NCBI GenBank assembly: GCA_016795505.1
Contig: JAEUHH010000055.1
Coordinates: forward strand, 62,001-126,000
Direction: 5' to 3'
Length of the DNA: 64,000 nucleotides
Source: Verrucomicrobiales bacterium
GTDB taxonomy: Bacteria; Verrucomicrobiota; Verrucomicrobiia; Verrucomicrobiales; DEV007
Shown in pieces: positions 33,886 to 43,289 of the stretch. The stretch's first letter is position 1. Each line of letters opens with the position of its first letter. The notes beneath the pieces are model-generated. The model saw nothing but the letters and a program-made list of their open reading frames with translations, did not search any database and was not told the origin of the DNA. A program made the translations under genes and the position numbers.

Positions 33886-34818
33886 CTATCCGACGAAAAT
33901 ATGCTTTCGGTGATAGGCCAAGTAGGTCTCGGCAGGAACTGTCATTGACCGGCGGTCCAAAATCAGTGGCTGCCCATGGCGGCTCTGGAGGTAAAATTCC
34001 GGTGAGCTACCGAGTTCTTTGAAATGAATCGAAGATGCGACCACGATTCGCAATTGCTCATCTACAGTCCACATCCCCTTATCCAGCAACCAGTGACTGT
34101 TGGGAGTAAGGGCGAGGCCATTTTCTGGCACGTTCGGCCCCCCTTTCTTTAGCGGGCGAATGTGAGCTGCCTCCACCAGATGCAATCCTGAGGTTGTAGT
34201 AAACGAATACCCAGTCAGTGCGCACTGGAAATAATATCCCACCACAATAGACCGCCGGAAATTGGCGCATCGGCCCGCATTTAGGCTTTCTTCGTAATCT
34301 GCCGCTCTCTTTTTCAAAGCGGAAACGTCAATTCCATGCGGTAGTGGAATGCCGCAGGCCTCCGATAGGGCGACTTGCTCCAGCGGAGTGAAATAAGTCG
34401 CCACAAGAACTGACTTGGCCTGCTGTCTAAAAGTTGGTGATTGAAGGCACTTCCAAAGTTCGTCATTGATGACGATTAGTTTTGTCGTGTCACGAGAATT
34501 GGAAATTTTCCCGTCGGCAGTCAGTGTGGCGGACCAGACGCGATCTCTTTGAGGTCCCAATGCGTGAAACGGCAATCGCATGTCGCCATGATTTTTACGG
34601 CGAGGTTCGACGATGGGCCAGAAATTCAAAAATCGATAGACCAGTTCTGCGGTAAATTCCAGATTGGGCTCTTCCAAGTGCCGATCACCGATCATCTCGA
34701 TGACCGCCAATAACAAAAGTGGTTTATGGGGAGCTACGCCTTTGCCATCACCGTGGTCTCGATCCACGTTCAAGTTGGCTAAACGAAATAGCCACTGATC
34801 TTCTGTGTCGTCACTCAT
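33886..34818 (-). CDS. HNH endonuclease (McrA/COG3440-like)
   Basis: A 310-residue protein from the ATG at 34818 (MSDDTEDQWLFRLANLNVDR); an upstream TTG would add 12 residues. The N-terminal half (about 150 residues) resembles the specificity part of predicted restriction endonucleases. The C-terminal HNH nuclease shows LHLVEAAHIRPLKKGG, NGLALTPNSHWLLDKG and an upstream Cys in GYYFQCALTGYSF, giving the H-N-H ligand pattern. This group includes modification-dependent enzymes, and some HNH proteins cleave phosphorothioate-modified DNA. It is 66 bp after orf157 and on the same strand as the dnd genes. Its A+T content is clearly higher than that of flanking chromosomal genes, which suggests transfer. 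Confidence 0.88.
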   Translation of the reverse strand: MSDDTEDQWLFRLANLNVDRDHGDGKGVAPHKPLLLLAVIEMIGDRHLEEPNLEFTAELVYRFLNFWPIVEPRRKNHGDMRLPFHALGPQRDRVWSATLTADGKISNSRDTTKLIVINDELWKCLQSPTFRQQAKSVLVATYFTPLEQVALSEACGIPLPHGIDVSALKKRAADYEESLNAGRCANFRRSIVVGYYFQCALTGYSFTTTSGLHLVEAAHIRPLKKGGPNVPENGLALTPNSHWLLDKGMWTVDEQLRIVVASSIHFKELGSSPEFYLQSRHGQPLILDRRSMTVPAETYLAYHRKHIFVG

Positions 34819-34884
34819 TTTCAATTTGGCAAGAGGTTCTAGATTCAATATCAATTGGATACCTGGTGGTTTTCTTGGAAAGAT

Positions 34885-35358
34885 TTAGTTGCCGGATCGA
34901 ATCCGTTCCGTCAATCGCGCCGCATCTTCTTGGTTTTCGCATTCGATAAACTCAATCGGCAATTCCATTGAGTCCGAAAGTAGCCGCAATTGGTCAGTTA
35001 TTTTCAGCGCCGCTATCCTATGAGCTCCGTCGGCTACATCAATGATATTTCCCAAAGGGAGACTAAGGATTCCGAAGCTTGTACCAAGCGCATCAGGAAG
35101 TGGTTCGAACTTCGCCCCCTTCTCGAATAGCACAATCAAAGGAGGCATGATTGGAAGACCTTTTTCGGATGCCCATCTATTTGCCATTCTTTGAACCCGA
35201 CGGGAATTCAACCGAAGCCCGGAATCCAGTGTCGAATGTTGGCCAAGTGAACCCAAATAGGAAAGGATCATCTTCACGCTCCAACTGGCGACAAACTGGG
35301 AACGACCGCCCTTTCGAAGGCGCATTGCCAAAAATTCCAAGGTGGGTTCCTGATTCAC
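34885..35358 (-). CDS. Minimal DGQHR/DndB-like protein in the dndE position
   Basis: A 157-residue protein with a GTG start at 35358 that overlaps the dndD stop codon in GTGA. A longer open frame to 35574 lies inside dndD and is not coding. The sequence RVQRMANRWASEKGLPIMPP, LIVLFEKGAKFEPLP and LGNIIDVADGAHRIAALK follows the core of DndB (RIPEISGYI..., VRFDALP, FIINDGQHRRAAIMEAL). The Q of DGQHR is replaced by A, and the protein ends where DndB continues for about 200 residues. It may be a truncated paralogue or an independent small family. It contains none of the DndE pattern. Coupling to dndD suggests a required stoichiometry. Weak similarity by eye is the only evidence for the link to DndB. 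Confidence 0.75.
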   Translation of the reverse strand: MNQEPTLEFLAMRLRKGGRSQFVASWSVKMILSYLGSLGQHSTLDSGLRLNSRRVQRMANRWASEKGLPIMPPLIVLFEKGAKFEPLPDALGTSFGILSLPLGNIIDVADGAHRIAALKITDQLRLLSDSMELPIEFIECENQEDAARLTERIRSGN

Positions 35359-37286
35359 GCTGCAATGGGGAATTGATTTGAAATGCGAAATCCTTGAGCT
35401 CCGAAAGCGCTGGCCCCGACGATTTCCTCGTCGGTCGAAAGCAGGATTACCTGATGGGAGGCGTAGGGGAAGTAGCGTTCCACGAGGTGCTTGCGGTGGG
35501 ATGAATCGAGGCGCCCGAGGGGCGTATCGATAAGGGTGGGAATGGGCCGTCCCGATGCACGGGCCAAGCCCCACAGCATGGCGGTGGCAAGGAGCTGGCG
35601 CTCTCCGGCGGACAAGCGGTCAAAGGGCAAGGGACGCCCGAACCGGTCGCCCAGCGTCACCGCAAAGGTCTCGGGATCGATCCGAAGATCATGGACGAGG
35701 TCGCTTTTGCGGAGGAGGGCGCGGAACGACTCGAGCATGAGCGCCTCCATCCGGGCGACATGACGCTCCACGACCCGGGTCCGGAATTTGGCGAGCGTCT
35801 CCCGCACCCTGGCGGAATGCTTGAGCATGCGGAGACGGGAGTCTTCCGCCAATTTGGCGTCGAGGTCTCGGTCGCCGAAGGTCTCAATGCGCCTGAGGAT
35901 CTCGTCGCGCTGCTTTCGCAACGCCTCCTGGCGGGCCTTGAGGGTCTCGATCTCCGCCATTTTTTCGGCATGATCGCGGCGGGCCTGATCGAGCAGGTCC
36001 TGGAATCGGGCGATGGAATCCTGTTCGGGCACCCGGCCCAACTCGCCCTCGACCCGGGCGATGGCTTCCTCGGCCCGGCGCACGGCTTCGATGCCTGCGC
36101 GTGCCAGCTCTGCCGCCTCGGGCAGGATCCGGCTGCGCAGGTGGGCGACATGGGAGGCGAGATGATCGTCGGCATCGAGCAGCAGCTCCTCGGCCGCCTC
36201 GGCCCGGCGATCCTCCCGGTCCATCTGAAGCTGCTTGCCGACATGGGTCAGGTCTTTTTTCGCCAGGCCCATATCCTCCAACATGGACAGGATGTGCTCG
36301 TCCCGATCCTCCATTGCATCGACCAGCAGCCGGTTGTGACGAACGCTGGTCTCGTGGCGGGCCTGAGCCTCCACCTCCCCGAGGAGATCATCGATGAGCA
36401 GGAGGGGCAAAGGCCCGGCGGCCAACTCGCGGAGCCGATCCTCCTCCGCTTTGCGGTTGGCGACGAGTCGGGCCAGTTCCGTTTCCAACTCCTTCCGCTT
36501 CACAAACAGGTCTCCCCCTTCCCGACGGAAGCGGTCTTCGCGATCCCGAAGAGTCTTGCCGAGGCTGTTGGCCTCGTTCACGACCCGGCCGATGTCGAGG
36601 GAGCTTTGCTCCCACTGCCGCTCCACCTCGGCCAGCTCGGCCTGGGCGACGGAAAGGGCCCGCGCCGCAGCCGGATCGAGGCCCTCCTGCTTCTTCTTCC
36701 GCTCAAAGACCCGCAAATCGCCTTCCAGTCGGTCCACCAGATCGAGGCCCAGCAGGGACCGGATCGCGGTGCCGAGGATGGCGGCCGCGTTCTCCCCCTC
36801 TGCCAATTCCTTGATCTGCTCGCCGTCGAAGAAGAAGAGATTCGAGATCGACACGGGAAGGTAGGCATCAATGACTTCGTCCCAATGCTCGGTCAGGGTC
36901 TCATCCGGCACACCGTCGCGAAGCACCCGAACGGTTTCCTCAATCCCTTTCACTCCCTGACGCCAGGAGCGCTCCACCTCGAAGTGCCGCGTCTCGCCCT
37001 CGATCATCCGCCGGAAGCGAAGGGTGATGCCGGCCCCATCGCCCGGGTCGGTTCCCCGATGAATGCACTCGGCCAGGTAATCCCGGTACGCCATCCGGCC
37101 GCGGTTGGACACCTTTCCCTTGGATCCGTAGAGAACCAACTGCAGGGCATCGAGCAGGGTGGTTTTTCCGCCCCCATTCATGCCGCCGAACAGGATCACC
37201 GCCTTGTCCGAAGCCGGCGTCAGGATGGCCTCTTGCAAGCCGCCGTAGGCGCCGAAGTTTTCCAGTCGGATCGAATCCAGAATCAT
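35355..37286 (-). CDS. dndD: DNA phosphorothioation protein DndD (SMC-like ATPase)
   Basis: A 643-residue ATPase. The N-terminus MILDSIRLENFGAYGGLQEA and Walker A FGGMNGGGKTTLLDALQ near residue 33 are typical of DndD/Rad50-like enzymes. A long charged coiled coil follows (about 190-480). The C-terminal half-domain carries the signature FDRLSAGERQLLATAMLWGL and Walker B IPTLIDTPLGRLDSSH. DndD hydrolyses ATP and is thought to nick or open DNA for sulfur insertion together with DndC and DndE. It overlaps dndC by 4 bp (ATGA) and orf157 by 4 bp (GTGA). Confidence 0.95.
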   Translation of the reverse strand: MILDSIRLENFGAYGGLQEAILTPASDKAVILFGGMNGGGKTTLLDALQLVLYGSKGKVSNRGRMAYRDYLAECIHRGTDPGDGAGITLRFRRMIEGETRHFEVERSWRQGVKGIEETVRVLRDGVPDETLTEHWDEVIDAYLPVSISNLFFFDGEQIKELAEGENAAAILGTAIRSLLGLDLVDRLEGDLRVFERKKKQEGLDPAAARALSVAQAELAEVERQWEQSSLDIGRVVNEANSLGKTLRDREDRFRREGGDLFVKRKELETELARLVANRKAEEDRLRELAAGPLPLLLIDDLLGEVEAQARHETSVRHNRLLVDAMEDRDEHILSMLEDMGLAKKDLTHVGKQLQMDREDRRAEAAEELLLDADDHLASHVAHLRSRILPEAAELARAGIEAVRRAEEAIARVEGELGRVPEQDSIARFQDLLDQARRDHAEKMAEIETLKARQEALRKQRDEILRRIETFGDRDLDAKLAEDSRLRMLKHSARVRETLAKFRTRVVERHVARMEALMLESFRALLRKSDLVHDLRIDPETFAVTLGDRFGRPLPFDRLSAGERQLLATAMLWGLARASGRPIPTLIDTPLGRLDSSHRKHLVERYFPYASHQVILLSTDEEIVGASAFGAQGFRISNQFPIAA

Positions 37287-38893
37287 ATCTTTTCCTCCCC
37301 GTAGGTGGTCTCATCATCTTCGGCTACGCGAAGGCCGGAATAGGCGGCATTATCTTTGAGGCGGCGCTTTTCATCTACCAAGCGGTTCGCGCGACCGATC
37401 GCATCTTCTTCGTTATCGTAGAAATGTTTTGAAAACGTCTTCTCGAGCTGATCGAAAAGGCCTGCTCGCTTGGCCGTATTCCGCTGTTGCCGGGTCTTAC
37501 TGAGAAGTTCTCGTGCCAATTCGTAATGGAGGCGGTCATCACCACAAATCGCCTTAAGCTCCTGCATTTCGGACGCTCCAAGTACCAGGTCGTCGTCGAG
37601 GGCTTCGCCCTCATAGGGCTCTCCCGTTGCCTCTTCGAAGATTTTCGGAAGCAGATCTTCCATCTCGTGTTTGTCGACGATCCAAATTCGCCGGATCTCT
37701 CGAAGCTCTTCCGGCGTGATCAATTCAATCTTCCGGACATCGGGAGGGCCGTGTTTGCGAATGTGGGTCTGGGCGCTTAGGAGCTTGCGAAGCCATTCTT
37801 CCCGAGACTGTTGAGTATATGGCCCTGGAATCGGACGCCCCCCAGCCATGACGTTAACGGCACCAGTCATCCTCCTAAAATCCCTCAAATGCCGATCCGT
37901 GTTTTCGGGATCGCCGTTTGGATCACTGCTTCTAAAATCGAGAGAGTTGCGCAGATCCAAGAGGGGCATCATCCACTCTTTCTCTTCGTCGTTCTGAATC
38001 ATGGCCGTCATTGATTTGTCCTGCTCAACCAGCGTACAGACCCAGCACCCGAACCGGGAGTCCCCACAGGAAGGTGTGGACGAGTCAACCACAAGGGGGC
38101 ATTCCCCATCGGCAGATGCGCCGGCGTACATTCCCAGGAGATCACGATTGTTGTATCCCCAGGGATTTTTCACCTGCATGAGGAACATCCACACGTCGTC
38201 GTTGGTCCAATCCTCTACAGGTGTATAGACTAGAGAACCCGGAAGACTCGAATTGGGGCTCAGCCGATCCCGCAGTCGACCCTTTTCGTGCTTTTTCATG
38301 TTTGCCGCACGCCGAACGCTCTCGGCCTTCCGAGTACCCAACACGAGTATGGCCTCACCACTGGTTTTTACGATACCGTTGATGAAGGTATTCGACGGCC
38401 GGATCTTCAAACGCTCGGTACACCAGCGGAATTTATGACGCGGAGCTGGGTAACCCCTTCCAATCAGATTCACCCAAAACGTGTTCGAGATCTCAGGAGT
38501 AAGCCGGTGTGGTCTGATCGGAAGGTTTTGATTTTTCGCCATCCCCTTCATCACCTCCAGAGACTGGCTGACCCAAGACGCCACCACTGGATTCTCGACA
38601 AGGGTATCGGTCGAAATCACATGCACCGTCTTCCGCCGCTCCTCCTCCGGCAATCCTTCGATCGCGGACCAGACCAGTTGCAGCACGGCGGTGGAATCCT
38701 TGCCGCCGGAGTAGCCGATGATCCAGGGGACATCGTCAGCCGTGTAAAGCTCGCGGATCTCATCATGGAGCGCCTCGACGGTGGCCTGAAAGCCGAGCGC
38801 ATCAAAGGCGGAAACGCGACGTTTCAGTTCGGGCTCCGTCATGTCGAGCGGCAGGACCGGTTGATCGGCGTTCTTACTTCGTTTCGTTGACAT
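37283..38893 (-). CDS. dndC: DNA phosphorothioation protein DndC (sulfurtransferase)
   Basis: A 536-residue protein of the PAPS reductase-like family. It has PP-loop GYSGGKDSTAVLQLVW near residue 63, RHKFRWCTERLKIRP near 145, and a later Cys cluster (GECPLVVDSSTPSCGDSRFG followed by CWVCTLVEQDKSM) that should hold the 4Fe-4S cluster. DndC uses ATP to activate DNA backbone phosphate and transfers sulfur supplied by DndA. It is 15 bp downstream of a kinase-like gene that is not part of the standard dnd operon and overlaps dndD. Confidence 0.96.
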   Translation of the reverse strand: MSTKRSKNADQPVLPLDMTEPELKRRVSAFDALGFQATVEALHDEIRELYTADDVPWIIGYSGGKDSTAVLQLVWSAIEGLPEEERRKTVHVISTDTLVENPVVASWVSQSLEVMKGMAKNQNLPIRPHRLTPEISNTFWVNLIGRGYPAPRHKFRWCTERLKIRPSNTFINGIVKTSGEAILVLGTRKAESVRRAANMKKHEKGRLRDRLSPNSSLPGSLVYTPVEDWTNDDVWMFLMQVKNPWGYNNRDLLGMYAGASADGECPLVVDSSTPSCGDSRFGCWVCTLVEQDKSMTAMIQNDEEKEWMMPLLDLRNSLDFRSSDPNGDPENTDRHLRDFRRMTGAVNVMAGGRPIPGPYTQQSREEWLRKLLSAQTHIRKHGPPDVRKIELITPEELREIRRIWIVDKHEMEDLLPKIFEEATGEPYEGEALDDDLVLGASEMQELKAICGDDRLHYELARELLSKTRQQRNTAKRAGLFDQLEKTFSKHFYDNEEDAIGRANRLVDEKRRLKDNAAYSGLRVAEDDETTYGEEKI

Positions 38894-38908: not shown

Positions 38909-39625
38909 TCAATTCGAGGAGAAGACCTCTGCGAGAAGGAGGTCGATGGGGAGAATGCCATCGGGCGTCGCGATGAAATTGTCTGGTTTTGCATCCAGAA
39001 TAACAAGCGACTGATCCGTGCTACGCCAGCCGTAGAAGGCGTTCAGAAGTCGTTCGAATCCCATTCCACGGAGGAATTCATCGACAGCCGCCTCCGAGGG
39101 GTATTGCTGCTTGTTGTCGGCTGCCTCCAGCCAGGGCTGGGAAATGACAAACGCAAATCCGCCGGTCGGCTGCCCAAGAATGAAGGGCCCCCCTGTGACC
39201 ACCATTCCGCCTTCGAGTTGGATCTCGTCGCCGAAGATCAGATTCTGGAGATGAAGGCGATGAAGGTATTCGCCGGCGTTCGCGGGACGCGGAACCCATT
39301 TGGAACCGTCTGGAGCCGGAACAAAACCAAACGAGCCCGGCAAGGTTCGTTTCACCGCCCGGTAGTCGCTCTCGCGAAACCGGACTTGGTGTTCCAGGGT
39401 GTGATCTGCCACCAAATGCAATGATTCCCACGCGGAAGGAGGAATCAGGCACCCTTCTTCTTCAGCCCATTGTCGGAGGAATGCTTGTTCCTCCAGACCT
39501 GAACCTCCTGAATTTGGTCGAGAATTTTGCTCAAGGGCGCGCGCGGCCTCTTCGCCAAGGCCTTGCGGGCCGCGATAACATCGGGGTGAGGGAAGGTCTG
39601 GGTTTTGTCCGGGTTCAACTCGCAT
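38909..39625 (-). CDS. Polyvalent-protein kinase-like protein inside the dnd operon
   Basis: A 238-residue protein from the ATG at 39625; a TTG further upstream is possible. Motifs QVRFRESDYRAVKRT near residue 80 (possible nucleotide-binding Lys) and VILDAKPDNFIATPDGILPI near 210 (D-x-K-P-x-N catalytic-loop pattern followed by a D in PIDL) match the putative Ser/Thr/Tyr kinases first described in phage polyvalent proteins (Kinase-PolyVal). IGQPTGGFAF and FVISQPWLEA look like the hinge. It lies between dinD (57 bp) and dndC (15 bp). Whether it is a true kinase and what it modifies are unknown. Confidence 0.72.
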   Translation of the reverse strand: MRVEPGQNPDLPSPRCYRGPQGLGEEAARALEQNSRPNSGGSGLEEQAFLRQWAEEEGCLIPPSAWESLHLVADHTLEHQVRFRESDYRAVKRTLPGSFGFVPAPDGSKWVPRPANAGEYLHRLHLQNLIFGDEIQLEGGMVVTGGPFILGQPTGGFAFVISQPWLEAADNKQQYPSEAAVDEFLRGMGFERLLNAFYGWRSTDQSLVILDAKPDNFIATPDGILPIDLLLAEVFSSN

Positions 39626-39682
39626 CAGGTTCGCAGTTTTGAGATGAAGTGTCAACAAGGGGTTCGGGGCAGGATACGGATC

Positions 39683-40537
39683 TCAGGGTTTCGGCAAACG
39701 TCCGGACTTCGATTCAATCCGCTTTTCCTCCGTCTTGACTCTTCGCTCGAGCTTTTTGATGTCTTCCTCTACCGGCAGATCTTCGGGCCGGATTCCACGC
39801 TGCCCGAGCATGTCCCGGACGCTCTGATTGTTCTGCACGTGTTCCCGCGTAATCGCCGTCTCTCCGTGCAGGTCGGCCTGGACGACATTGTGATTCGTCA
39901 TCTCTGTGGCAAGGTTTTTCGCGGCGATGGTGAGCGTGGGCAGGAAGTCGGCCAAGGGACGGGTTGTAGTGATCCCGAACTTCTCCTTCATCGCCTTGGT
40001 CGCGCAGCCGCCAAAAAGCGCGGCGTCTCCTTTGGACCGAATCCTGCCAAAACCTTCATCATCGACACCGCGTTCGTAGAGGTTGTCGGACAGCGCTTTC
40101 TCGGAAGCGCGGAGTTTCTCCCGCGCCTCAAGCCGTCCCTTCAGGAGGATGCGCTCCTCAATCAATTCCTGTCGACGGGTCTGGACCGCAAAATAGCTCT
40201 GGGCGAAAGCAATCGGCGGCTTCCGGGGATCGCCGTTCTGGGCGATGAGGTAACAAGCGTAGCGGGTGAGCATGAAATCATCGACTTCCCGGGCAGCTCC
40301 ACTCCCGAGAGCAACCATTTTCGTGACGCCACGAAAATGGTGTTCAGAATCATAACCCGTTGTTTCGCAGGAAGTAATTGCCCTTTGAACCGCGCCCAGA
40401 AAGTTTTCCCAACGGGCGTATCCGAGCGGTTCCTGGAGGTCGCGGGCAAACCAGAACTCCACCTCTGGCGCATCCGGATGAACGCGGGCGATCTCGTCGA
40501 ATTGGATTTGGAGCGTTTGGATCAGTTCAGATTCCAT
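39683..40537 (-). CDS. dinD: DNA damage-inducible protein D-like (DinD)
   Basis: A 284-residue protein close in length and plan to DinD of E. coli. It has a BRO-like N-terminal part (VEFWFARDLQEPLGYARWEN), a conserved core (SGAAREVDDFMLTRYACYLI, AQNGDPRKPPIAFAQSYFAV) and a C-terminal charged helix (DIKKLERRVKTEEKRIESKS). E. coli DinD is an SOS gene product that blocks RecA-mediated strand exchange. dinD-like genes are known within or near some dnd islands, here between dndB (28 bp) and the kinase-like gene. No LexA box could be recognised in the short gap, so expression probably follows the operon. Confidence 0.9.
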   Translation of the reverse strand: MESELIQTLQIQFDEIARVHPDAPEVEFWFARDLQEPLGYARWENFLGAVQRAITSCETTGYDSEHHFRGVTKMVALGSGAAREVDDFMLTRYACYLIAQNGDPRKPPIAFAQSYFAVQTRRQELIEERILLKGRLEAREKLRASEKALSDNLYERGVDDEGFGRIRSKGDAALFGGCATKAMKEKFGITTTRPLADFLPTLTIAAKNLATEMTNHNVVQADLHGETAITREHVQNNQSVRDMLGQRGIRPEDLPVEEDIKKLERRVKTEEKRIESKSGRLPKP

Positions 40538-42155: not shown

Positions 42156-43289
42156 GTGAACCCCACCTACCTCGACTGCAACGCCACGACCCCACTCGAT
42201 CCCGAGGTGCGGGAAATCCTGTTGCGATATCTGGCCGAAGAATACGGCAATGAGGGCAGTCGCACCCACGAGTATGGGGCCCGCGCCAAGCAGGCCGTAC
42301 AGCGGGCGCGAGATCAGGTGGCGGCCGTAGTGGAGGCGACCCGGGACGAGGTGATTTTCACGAGCGGCGCCACGGAGAGCAACAACATCGCCCTGTTGGG
42401 CCTCGCGGACCACGGCCGGGAAAGTGGGCGCCGGCATGTGATCACCACTGTGATCGAGCACAAGGCCGTGCTGGAACCTTGTGAGGCTCTGGAAAAGGTG
42501 GGCTTTGAGGTGAGCCGCCTGGGCGTGGACTCCAGCGGGCGGATCGATCCTGCCGAGCTGGCTGCCACGCTCCGGCCTGAGACGCTGCTGGTCTCCGTGA
42601 TGCAGGTCAACAACGAGACCGGCATCCGCCAGCCGATGGCAGAGATCACCGCCACGCTGGCCGATCACCCGGCCTATCTCCACACCGATGCCGCGCAGGG
42701 CTTTGGCAAGGATCTTGAAACGCTGAAGCTGCGGCGGATCGACCTGATCAGCATCAGCGGGCACAAGCTTTTTGCCCCGAAAGGTGTGGGCGCTCTCGTG
42801 ATGCGCCGCCGAGGTTACGACCGGGTTCCCTTGCGACCGCTGACTTACGGAGGTGGTCAGGAACGGGGCTTGCGGCCGGGAACGCTGCCGGTGGCGCTCA
42901 TCGCCGCCCTGGGAACCGCGGCGGAGGTTGCGGTGCGGGATCGCGAAAAGCGGCAGCGACGTTGTCGAGAGATCCGAGAGGCGGCGCTGGAAGCGCTGGC
43001 GCCGCTGTCACCCAAGATCAGCGGTGACGAGTCCCATGCCATGGATCATGTCCTCAACGTGGCATTCGGCAACCTCGACTCAGAGGCGCTCATGGTGGCG
43101 GTGAAGGATCTGATTGCCATCTCCAATGGCTCCGCTTGCACCTCCAGCAGCTACACCCCCAGCCATGTGCTGCGAGCGATGGGAATGACCGACGATGAGG
43201 CGAACAGCTGCGTCCGGGTCAGTTGGTGCCACCTCACTCCCGATGTCGACTGGGGCGCGGTAGCTGCGAGAATTCAGTCCCTGCTGTAG
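42156..43289 (+). CDS. dndA: Cysteine desulfurase DndA (IscS-like)
   Basis: A 377-residue pyridoxal-phosphate enzyme with a GTG start at 42156. Motifs are YLDCNATTPLDPEVR at the N-terminus, FTSGATESNNIALLG near residue 70, PLP lysine in SISGHKLFAPKGVGAL near 205 and catalytic cysteine in SNGSACTSSSYTPSHV near 328. It takes sulfur from L-cysteine and passes it to DndC. The gene is divergent from the other dnd genes across a 61-bp AT-rich spacer that must contain both promoters. It is convergent with the HARE-HTH gene. Confidence 0.93.
   Translation: MNPTYLDCNATTPLDPEVREILLRYLAEEYGNEGSRTHEYGARAKQAVQRARDQVAAVVEATRDEVIFTSGATESNNIALLGLADHGRESGRRHVITTVIEHKAVLEPCEALEKVGFEVSRLGVDSSGRIDPAELAATLRPETLLVSVMQVNNETGIRQPMAEITATLADHPAYLHTDAAQGFGKDLETLKLRRIDLISISGHKLFAPKGVGALVMRRRGYDRVPLRPLTYGGGQERGLRPGTLPVALIAALGTAAEVAVRDREKRQRRCREIREAALEALAPLSPKISGDESHAMDHVLNVAFGNLDSEALMVAVKDLIAISNGSACTSSSYTPSHVLRAMGMTDDEANSCVRVSWCHLTPDVDWGAVAARIQSLL

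Follow-up and report, generated by a model that had tools for sequence, protein, structure and literature searches.

What occupies the position of DndE in a phosphorothioation operon that has no dndE? The dndD and dndE genes have been claimed to form an obligate pair (PMC10853773), and deletion of dndE abolishes phosphorothioation (PMC4507180, PMC8569181). In the window, the whole stretch of 64,000 nucleotides analysed here from a Verrucomicrobiales bacterium, the dndD/dndE pairing of the canonical dndABCDE system is absent. Its dnd operon lies mostly on the minus strand and comprises a dnd-associated methyltransferase gene, a divergent dndA, the gene of a small protein, dndB, dinD, a kinase-like gene, dndC, dndD, an open reading frame (ORF) of 157 codons and an HNH gene. 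The original prediction described the 157-residue product as a minimal DGQHR protein that is tightly coupled to DndD and may replace DndE functionally. The features referred to below are:

33886 to 34818, minus strand: SBD-HNH endonuclease (P0008), NF045808 at 107.7 bits (below the cut-off of 180), HNH_2
34885 to 35358, minus strand: truncated second DndB (DndB2), 157 residues, an N-terminal domain of predicted ParB/Srx fold with the motif ADGAHRIAAL and a GTG start
35355 to 37286, minus strand: dndD (643 residues), TIGR03185 at 584 bits over profile positions 1-618 of 650
35358 to 35417, minus strand: non-homologous dndD tail, GASAFGAQGFRISNQFPIAA, at the site where dndE and the end of dndD are missing
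37283 to 38893, minus strand: dndC, TIGR03183 at 690 bits
40566 to 41666, minus strand: canonical dndB (366 residues, NDGQHRRAAI), TIGR03233 at 480 bits
41648 to 42094, minus strand: small conserved protein upstream of dndB with the motif DVFHSTLDWQT (FHSTLDWQ-type)
42156 to 43289, plus strand: dndA, cysteine desulfurase, TIGR03235 at 504 bits
43740 to 45815, minus strand: dnd-associated putative methyltransferase, TIGR04096 at 556 bits

Between dndB and dndC, which are adjacent in most relatives, two genes are inserted at 38909-40537: a DinD-like one (NF008573, 367 bits) and one whose match to a polyvalent-protein kinase is weak. The small protein upstream of dndB matched no Pfam or NCBIfam family and has homologs beside dndB in loci L044, L049, L050 and L064. 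The C-terminus of DndC (residues 443-485) matches Sp-DndD (PF20306) weakly, with E=0.09.

The absence of dndE from its expected place was borne out genome-wide, as neither PF08870 nor TIGR03184 finds a DndE in the entire genome of the window (a 6.5 Mb assembly, 96.6% complete, in which the window lies on contig C51). Both models do detect dndE in relatives, directly after dndD where the locus was retrieved. An unfiltered six-frame search of the window with our own DndE profile, built mainly from 59 DndE genes in dndD neighbourhoods, returned nothing of note.

The 157-residue frame was confirmed at 34885-35358 on the minus strand, with its GTG (35358-35356) sharing 4 bp with the dndD stop (GTGA). 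Its product passes the threshold of the Pfam DndB family PF14072 (E=6.2e-9, 35.8 bits, cut-off 29.1), where residues 9-119 align with positions 1-113 of 338, that is, with the N-terminal part of the profile only. The NCBIfam DGQHR domain aligns at 35.8 bits (profile positions 1-138 of 276), under its cut-off of 58.85. In the NCBIfam profile search there was no match to TIGR03233, the equivalog of full-length DndB, and neither of the DndE models PF08870 and TIGR03184 matched the protein. By profile score, the DndB match is far above chance level. That the ORF is a chance frame or an assembly artefact is scarcely credible: the assembly consists of 120 contigs and is not a closed genome, but the family match is highly significant and the same locus structure occurs in an independent genome (L044, see below).

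The GTG start is credible because the protein and DndB align from their first residues onward (VNQEPTLEF and MDTEPVLTF). ADGAHRIAAL pairs with NDGQHRRAAI of DndB and about 200 C-terminal DndB residues are missing, both as originally predicted. The DGQHR motif is incomplete (DGAHR), with the invariant D, G, H and R present and alanine in place of glutamine. The position of the lost glutamine is, we assume from motif correspondence, that of the glutamate of ParB and the cysteine of sulfiredoxin; its loss would suggest nucleotide binding without hydrolysis. A GxxR nucleotide-binding (P) motif is present, from which NTP binding at most would be predicted. Binding of ATP and GTP has been demonstrated for one DndB-like protein (PMC12704722).

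Is the short protein a separate kind of DGQHR protein? Locus L044, on a Methylococcaceae contig, has the order dndA, small protein, dndB, dndC, dndD, second DndB, HNH. Its second DndB is full-length (359 residues, DGLHRISAL) and overlaps dndD as ATGA, so that a 4-bp overlap between dndD and dndB2 is common to the window and L044. The HNH proteins of the two loci are 43% identical and are orthologous SBD-HNH proteins, and the two DndE models find no DndE in the L044 locus or in its whole genome. The window ORF and the second DndB of L044 come out as sisters in the DndB tree (0.93), separate from the DndBs proper to the operons. By alignment and tree, the window ORF is a C-terminally truncated ortholog of the full-length L044 DndB2. 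A frameshift concealing the DndB2 C-terminus was ruled out, as the HNH gene begins at most 70 bp past the stop and leaves no space for it.

The short form was found nowhere else. In 355 Verrucomicrobiae genomes, no DndB-family frame apart from this one is shorter than 362 residues, and no other DndB-family gene is cut after the N-domain among the other dndD loci, which were collected by a DndD-alignment scan with one genome per species (80 loci, the best 80 of 539 relatives). No close relatives of the short protein were detected in genome contigs, viral contigs, plasmids, phages or 95 relatives; the phage and plasmid matches inspected are longer DGQHR proteins, and a PDB sequence search found no DndB relative. 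Judged on these comparisons, the short form of DndB2 is a private truncation. The idea of a minimal DGQHR protein as a kind of its own therefore did not hold, since the survey of dndD neighbours for homologues of similar length led instead to the full-length protein in the same slot of L044.

The predicted structure places the truncation at a domain boundary. AlphaFold models the 157 residues, with an alignment of 33 sequences, as a complete alpha/beta domain (pLDDT 85.9, pTM 0.82). The full-length L044 protein is modelled with the same N-domain, followed by a low-confidence linker (residues 153-168) and a helical domain, and the end of the short protein coincides with the start of this linker. 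Of the 22 entries in the VIA-align listing, nearly all belong to ParB, Noc, KorB, PadC or sulfiredoxin; Z reaches a modest 6.4 at best, yet the list is consistent. The best Foldseek match of the short protein is sulfiredoxin-ATP, at low significance (E 0.1, prob 0.87); for the full-length L044 model, the sulfiredoxin matches were no more than weak, and the C-terminal domain had no clear match. The short protein is thus predicted to have a ParB/sulfiredoxin fold, unlike the ribbon-helix-helix of DndE, in agreement with the relationship to DndB that had been proposed. The 157-residue protein is the ParB/Srx-fold N-domain of a second, divergent DndB paralogue, cut at the domain boundary.

The end of dndD is also abnormal. 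The ATPase motifs are intact, the canonical C-terminal tail is gone after STDEEIV, and the final 20 or so codons have no counterpart in the other DndD tails in the alignment with relatives. The usual tail with a GYF-like end is found in 79/79 other evaluable DndDs among the best 80 of 539 relatives, L062 with KYF being included by eye. Within the odd tail, position 35407 is a GC change-point (from 0.65 to 0.49), and alignment of the window with L044 places deletions on the window side in the stretch around the dndD end. A random junction fusing foreign DNA to dndD, first suggested by the abnormal tail and the break in GC, was rejected, as L044 has the same order of DndB2 and HNH genes; GC falls from dndD into this gene pair in both loci. 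From these alignments, only the deletion of the dndD tail appears to be private to the window, whereas the gene order recurs.

Could the ORF be a non-functional remnant of dndB2, in a degenerating locus from which a deletion took the C-terminal half? The truncation is private, the dndD tail was deleted as well, and the ORF is more divergent than the N-domain of L044 DndB2, scoring 22.8 against 37.7 bits with the canonical DndB profile and having a longer branch in the DndB tree. However, its 157 codons are open with a base composition by codon position like that of the neighbouring HNH gene, the invariant D-G-x-H-R residues are retained, and the protein stops where a domain ends and is modelled as a complete one (pLDDT 86, pTM 0.82). 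Decay is an explanation we consider on the unlikely side, though one to be taken seriously.

How did the pair of genes come to lie behind dndD? The DndD tree places the window with the dndE-bearing L014, and L044 and L075 with the dndE-bearing L046. Since the window and L044 thus belong to different DndD subclades with dndE-bearing relatives, either dndE was lost and replaced by dndB2 repeatedly, or the DndB2-HNH unit was exchanged. A gene for DndE is missing after dndD in a third locus, L075, whose dndD is split and followed by a second DndB (355 residues), a local duplicate of DndB, and an SBD-HNH. A possible scrap of dndE that resembles the DndE core, CRFTVLIALDSATMPP (at L075:10969-11028, ICCRFTVLIALDSATMPP), stands at the expected place between the split dndD and the second DndB, with weak evidence (4.3 bits). 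The L075 genome holds one further DndE-like stretch, unlinked and fused to ATPase-like sequence. A DndE-like N-terminus was also seen in a protein of about 510 residues behind a DndD-like ATPase in L131 (G481, contig C72) and in L124; by eye, the remainder of the L131 protein looks like a HerA/FtsK-type ATPase.

A DndB-like gene adjoins SBD-HNH in L075, L113 and Chlorohelix as well. In the dnd loci L113 (5109-7228) and L042 (5971-8024), which keep dndE, a DndB gene lies directly beside SBD-HNH, and these pairs suggest that DndB and SBD-HNH form a two-gene unit. Scans of viral contigs for the HNH pair returned nothing.

The SBD-HNH protein of the window keeps the sulfur-pocket residues H43, K44, P95 and A98 and the H-N-H residues (numbered in the 322-residue frame 33886-34854). 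Compared with the SBD of ScoMcrA, H43-K44 correspond to H116-R117, L94-P95 to Y164-P165 and A98 to A168. From the pocket and the HNH residues, the protein is predicted to cleave phosphorothioate (PT) DNA. SBD-HNH is intact in all three loci without dndE behind dndD and in one of eight dnd loci with dndE (one-sided Fisher test, 8/330, about 0.02, for few, partly related loci and a post hoc criterion). Among the eight, the HK pair is changed in L013, L042, L113 and L122, the gene is split in L097, and the first catalytic histidine is lost in L049 and L054; L053, where SBD-HNH looks intact, is the exception to the pattern. In L049 (11364-12230) and L054 (11364-12221) the gene lies beside dndE and the first HNH histidine is replaced by Glu. 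SBD-HNH genes are seldom found beside dnd, a mutated dnd cluster being one explanation offered where they are (PMC7461809), and the pattern agrees with the published picture of mutual avoidance between active dnd clusters and PT-dependent nucleases (PMC7461809). At odds with the pattern is the proposal that SBD-HNH beside Dnd modules works with a live writer, supplying the restriction part of a functioning Dnd system (PMC10853773).

Is the writer alive? Of about 367 near-invariant columns of DndA/B/C/D, the window deviates in three (one in the lost tail) and L044 in one, a level similar to that of dndE-bearing operons. DndA, DndC and DndD of the window have equivalog matches and keep their near-invariant columns, the DndD tail being missing. 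With cores this near to perfect, the writer cores are not decaying, or DndE was lost recently. The intact SBD-HNH alongside suggests that the writer may be silent.

DndB2 might replace DndE: by binding both DndD and DNA it would recognise targets as a partner of DndACD, and phosphorothioate or another mark would still be written. The 4-bp overlap between dndD and dndB2 is conserved in the window and L044, the writer cores are conserved without DndE, no DndE is seen anywhere in genomes G000 or G480 that could be supplied in trans, and the dndE-less state occurs in more than one DndD subclade. Against this, the predicted fold is unlike that of DndE, the window DndB2 lacks half the protein and the window DndD its tail, and a reader that is intact and cuts PT should do harm next to a writer that is active (PMC7461809). 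Moreover, DndB stands outside the DndCDE complex, and canonical DndB does not co-purify with it (PMC4611135). As to the replacement of DndE suggested by the original prediction, the conserved cores speak for it, and the fold, the position of DndB outside DndCDE, the lost DndD tail and the intact SBD-HNH speak against it; we regard it as improbable. The version in which a ParB/Srx NTP switch stands in for the ribbon-helix-helix, with SBD-HNH as a reader or restrictor that is regulated or of different specificity, is similarly doubtful.

Alternatively, and in our preferred reading, which we hold to be about evenly poised between right and wrong, the DndB2-HNH unit displaced dndE, canonical PT writing was lost here, and the most that the short protein does is to partner the nuclease as a nucleotide binder or to regulate it. 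DndB2 and SBD-HNH would be a two-gene unit now in the slot of dndE behind dndD, and the dndD end and dndE would have been lost on acquisition of this cassette or through later deletion. An operon that has a shortened DndD and no DndE would probably no longer write canonical phosphorothioate, so that a PT-cutting nuclease would be tolerable. The short DndB2 would be made together with DndD through translational coupling. Since it keeps GxxR and has alanine for glutamine, its role would at most be to bind NTP as a partner of the nuclease or to act as its autoregulator, and not to substitute for DndE. The near-perfect DndA/B/C/D cores would, however, be surprising in a dead writer, other than after a recent loss.

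The locus is a rare dnd variant, seen in two genomes, with intact dndABCD cores, no DndE, and a second DndB and SBD-HNH instead; the mostly open-access literature searched contains no description of a dnd operon that lacks dndE and has a second DndB. If DndE can be replaced, the model of target finding by DndD would change. Should the less probable reading be true, it would amount to DndE-less phosphorothioation with a DndB paralogue as the DNA-targeting partner of DndD, coupled to an SBD-HNH reader and reduced to the N-domain in the window. If SBD-HNH instead displaced part of a writer operon and silenced it, the locus would be an example of modification and modification-dependent restriction being mutually exclusive.

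How does this arrangement compare with known systems? DndB (PF14072 / TIGR03233) is an ATP-dependent repressor of dnd operons. The short protein shares with it N-domain homology from residue 1, the ParB/Srx fold and the DGxHR core, but it lacks the C-terminal domain of about 200 residues, has alanine for glutamine and is only 22-29% identical, and its gene is a second copy behind dndD. With DndE (PF08870 / TIGR03184) it has in common the slot, the overlap coupling to dndD and a similar size class, whereas there is no sequence match and a ParB/Srx fold is predicted in place of the two ribbon-helix-helix units of DndE. The window HNH protein resembles the PT-dependent SBD-HNH enzymes (EcoWI and SprMcrA; ScoMcrA is SBD-SRA-HNH) in its HK, P and A pocket and its HNH residues; it differs in scoring under the NF045808 cut-off, in having Leu for the pocket Tyr and in its location inside a dnd operon behind a DndB2 gene. 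As in SspABCD-SspE and DndI, a PT writer is paired with a protein of the ParB-like superfamily and HNH chemistry, and Ssp also does without DndE; there, however, the ParB-like (DUF262) and HNH parts are joined in one protein, whereas here they are encoded by separate genes beside a DndACD writer.
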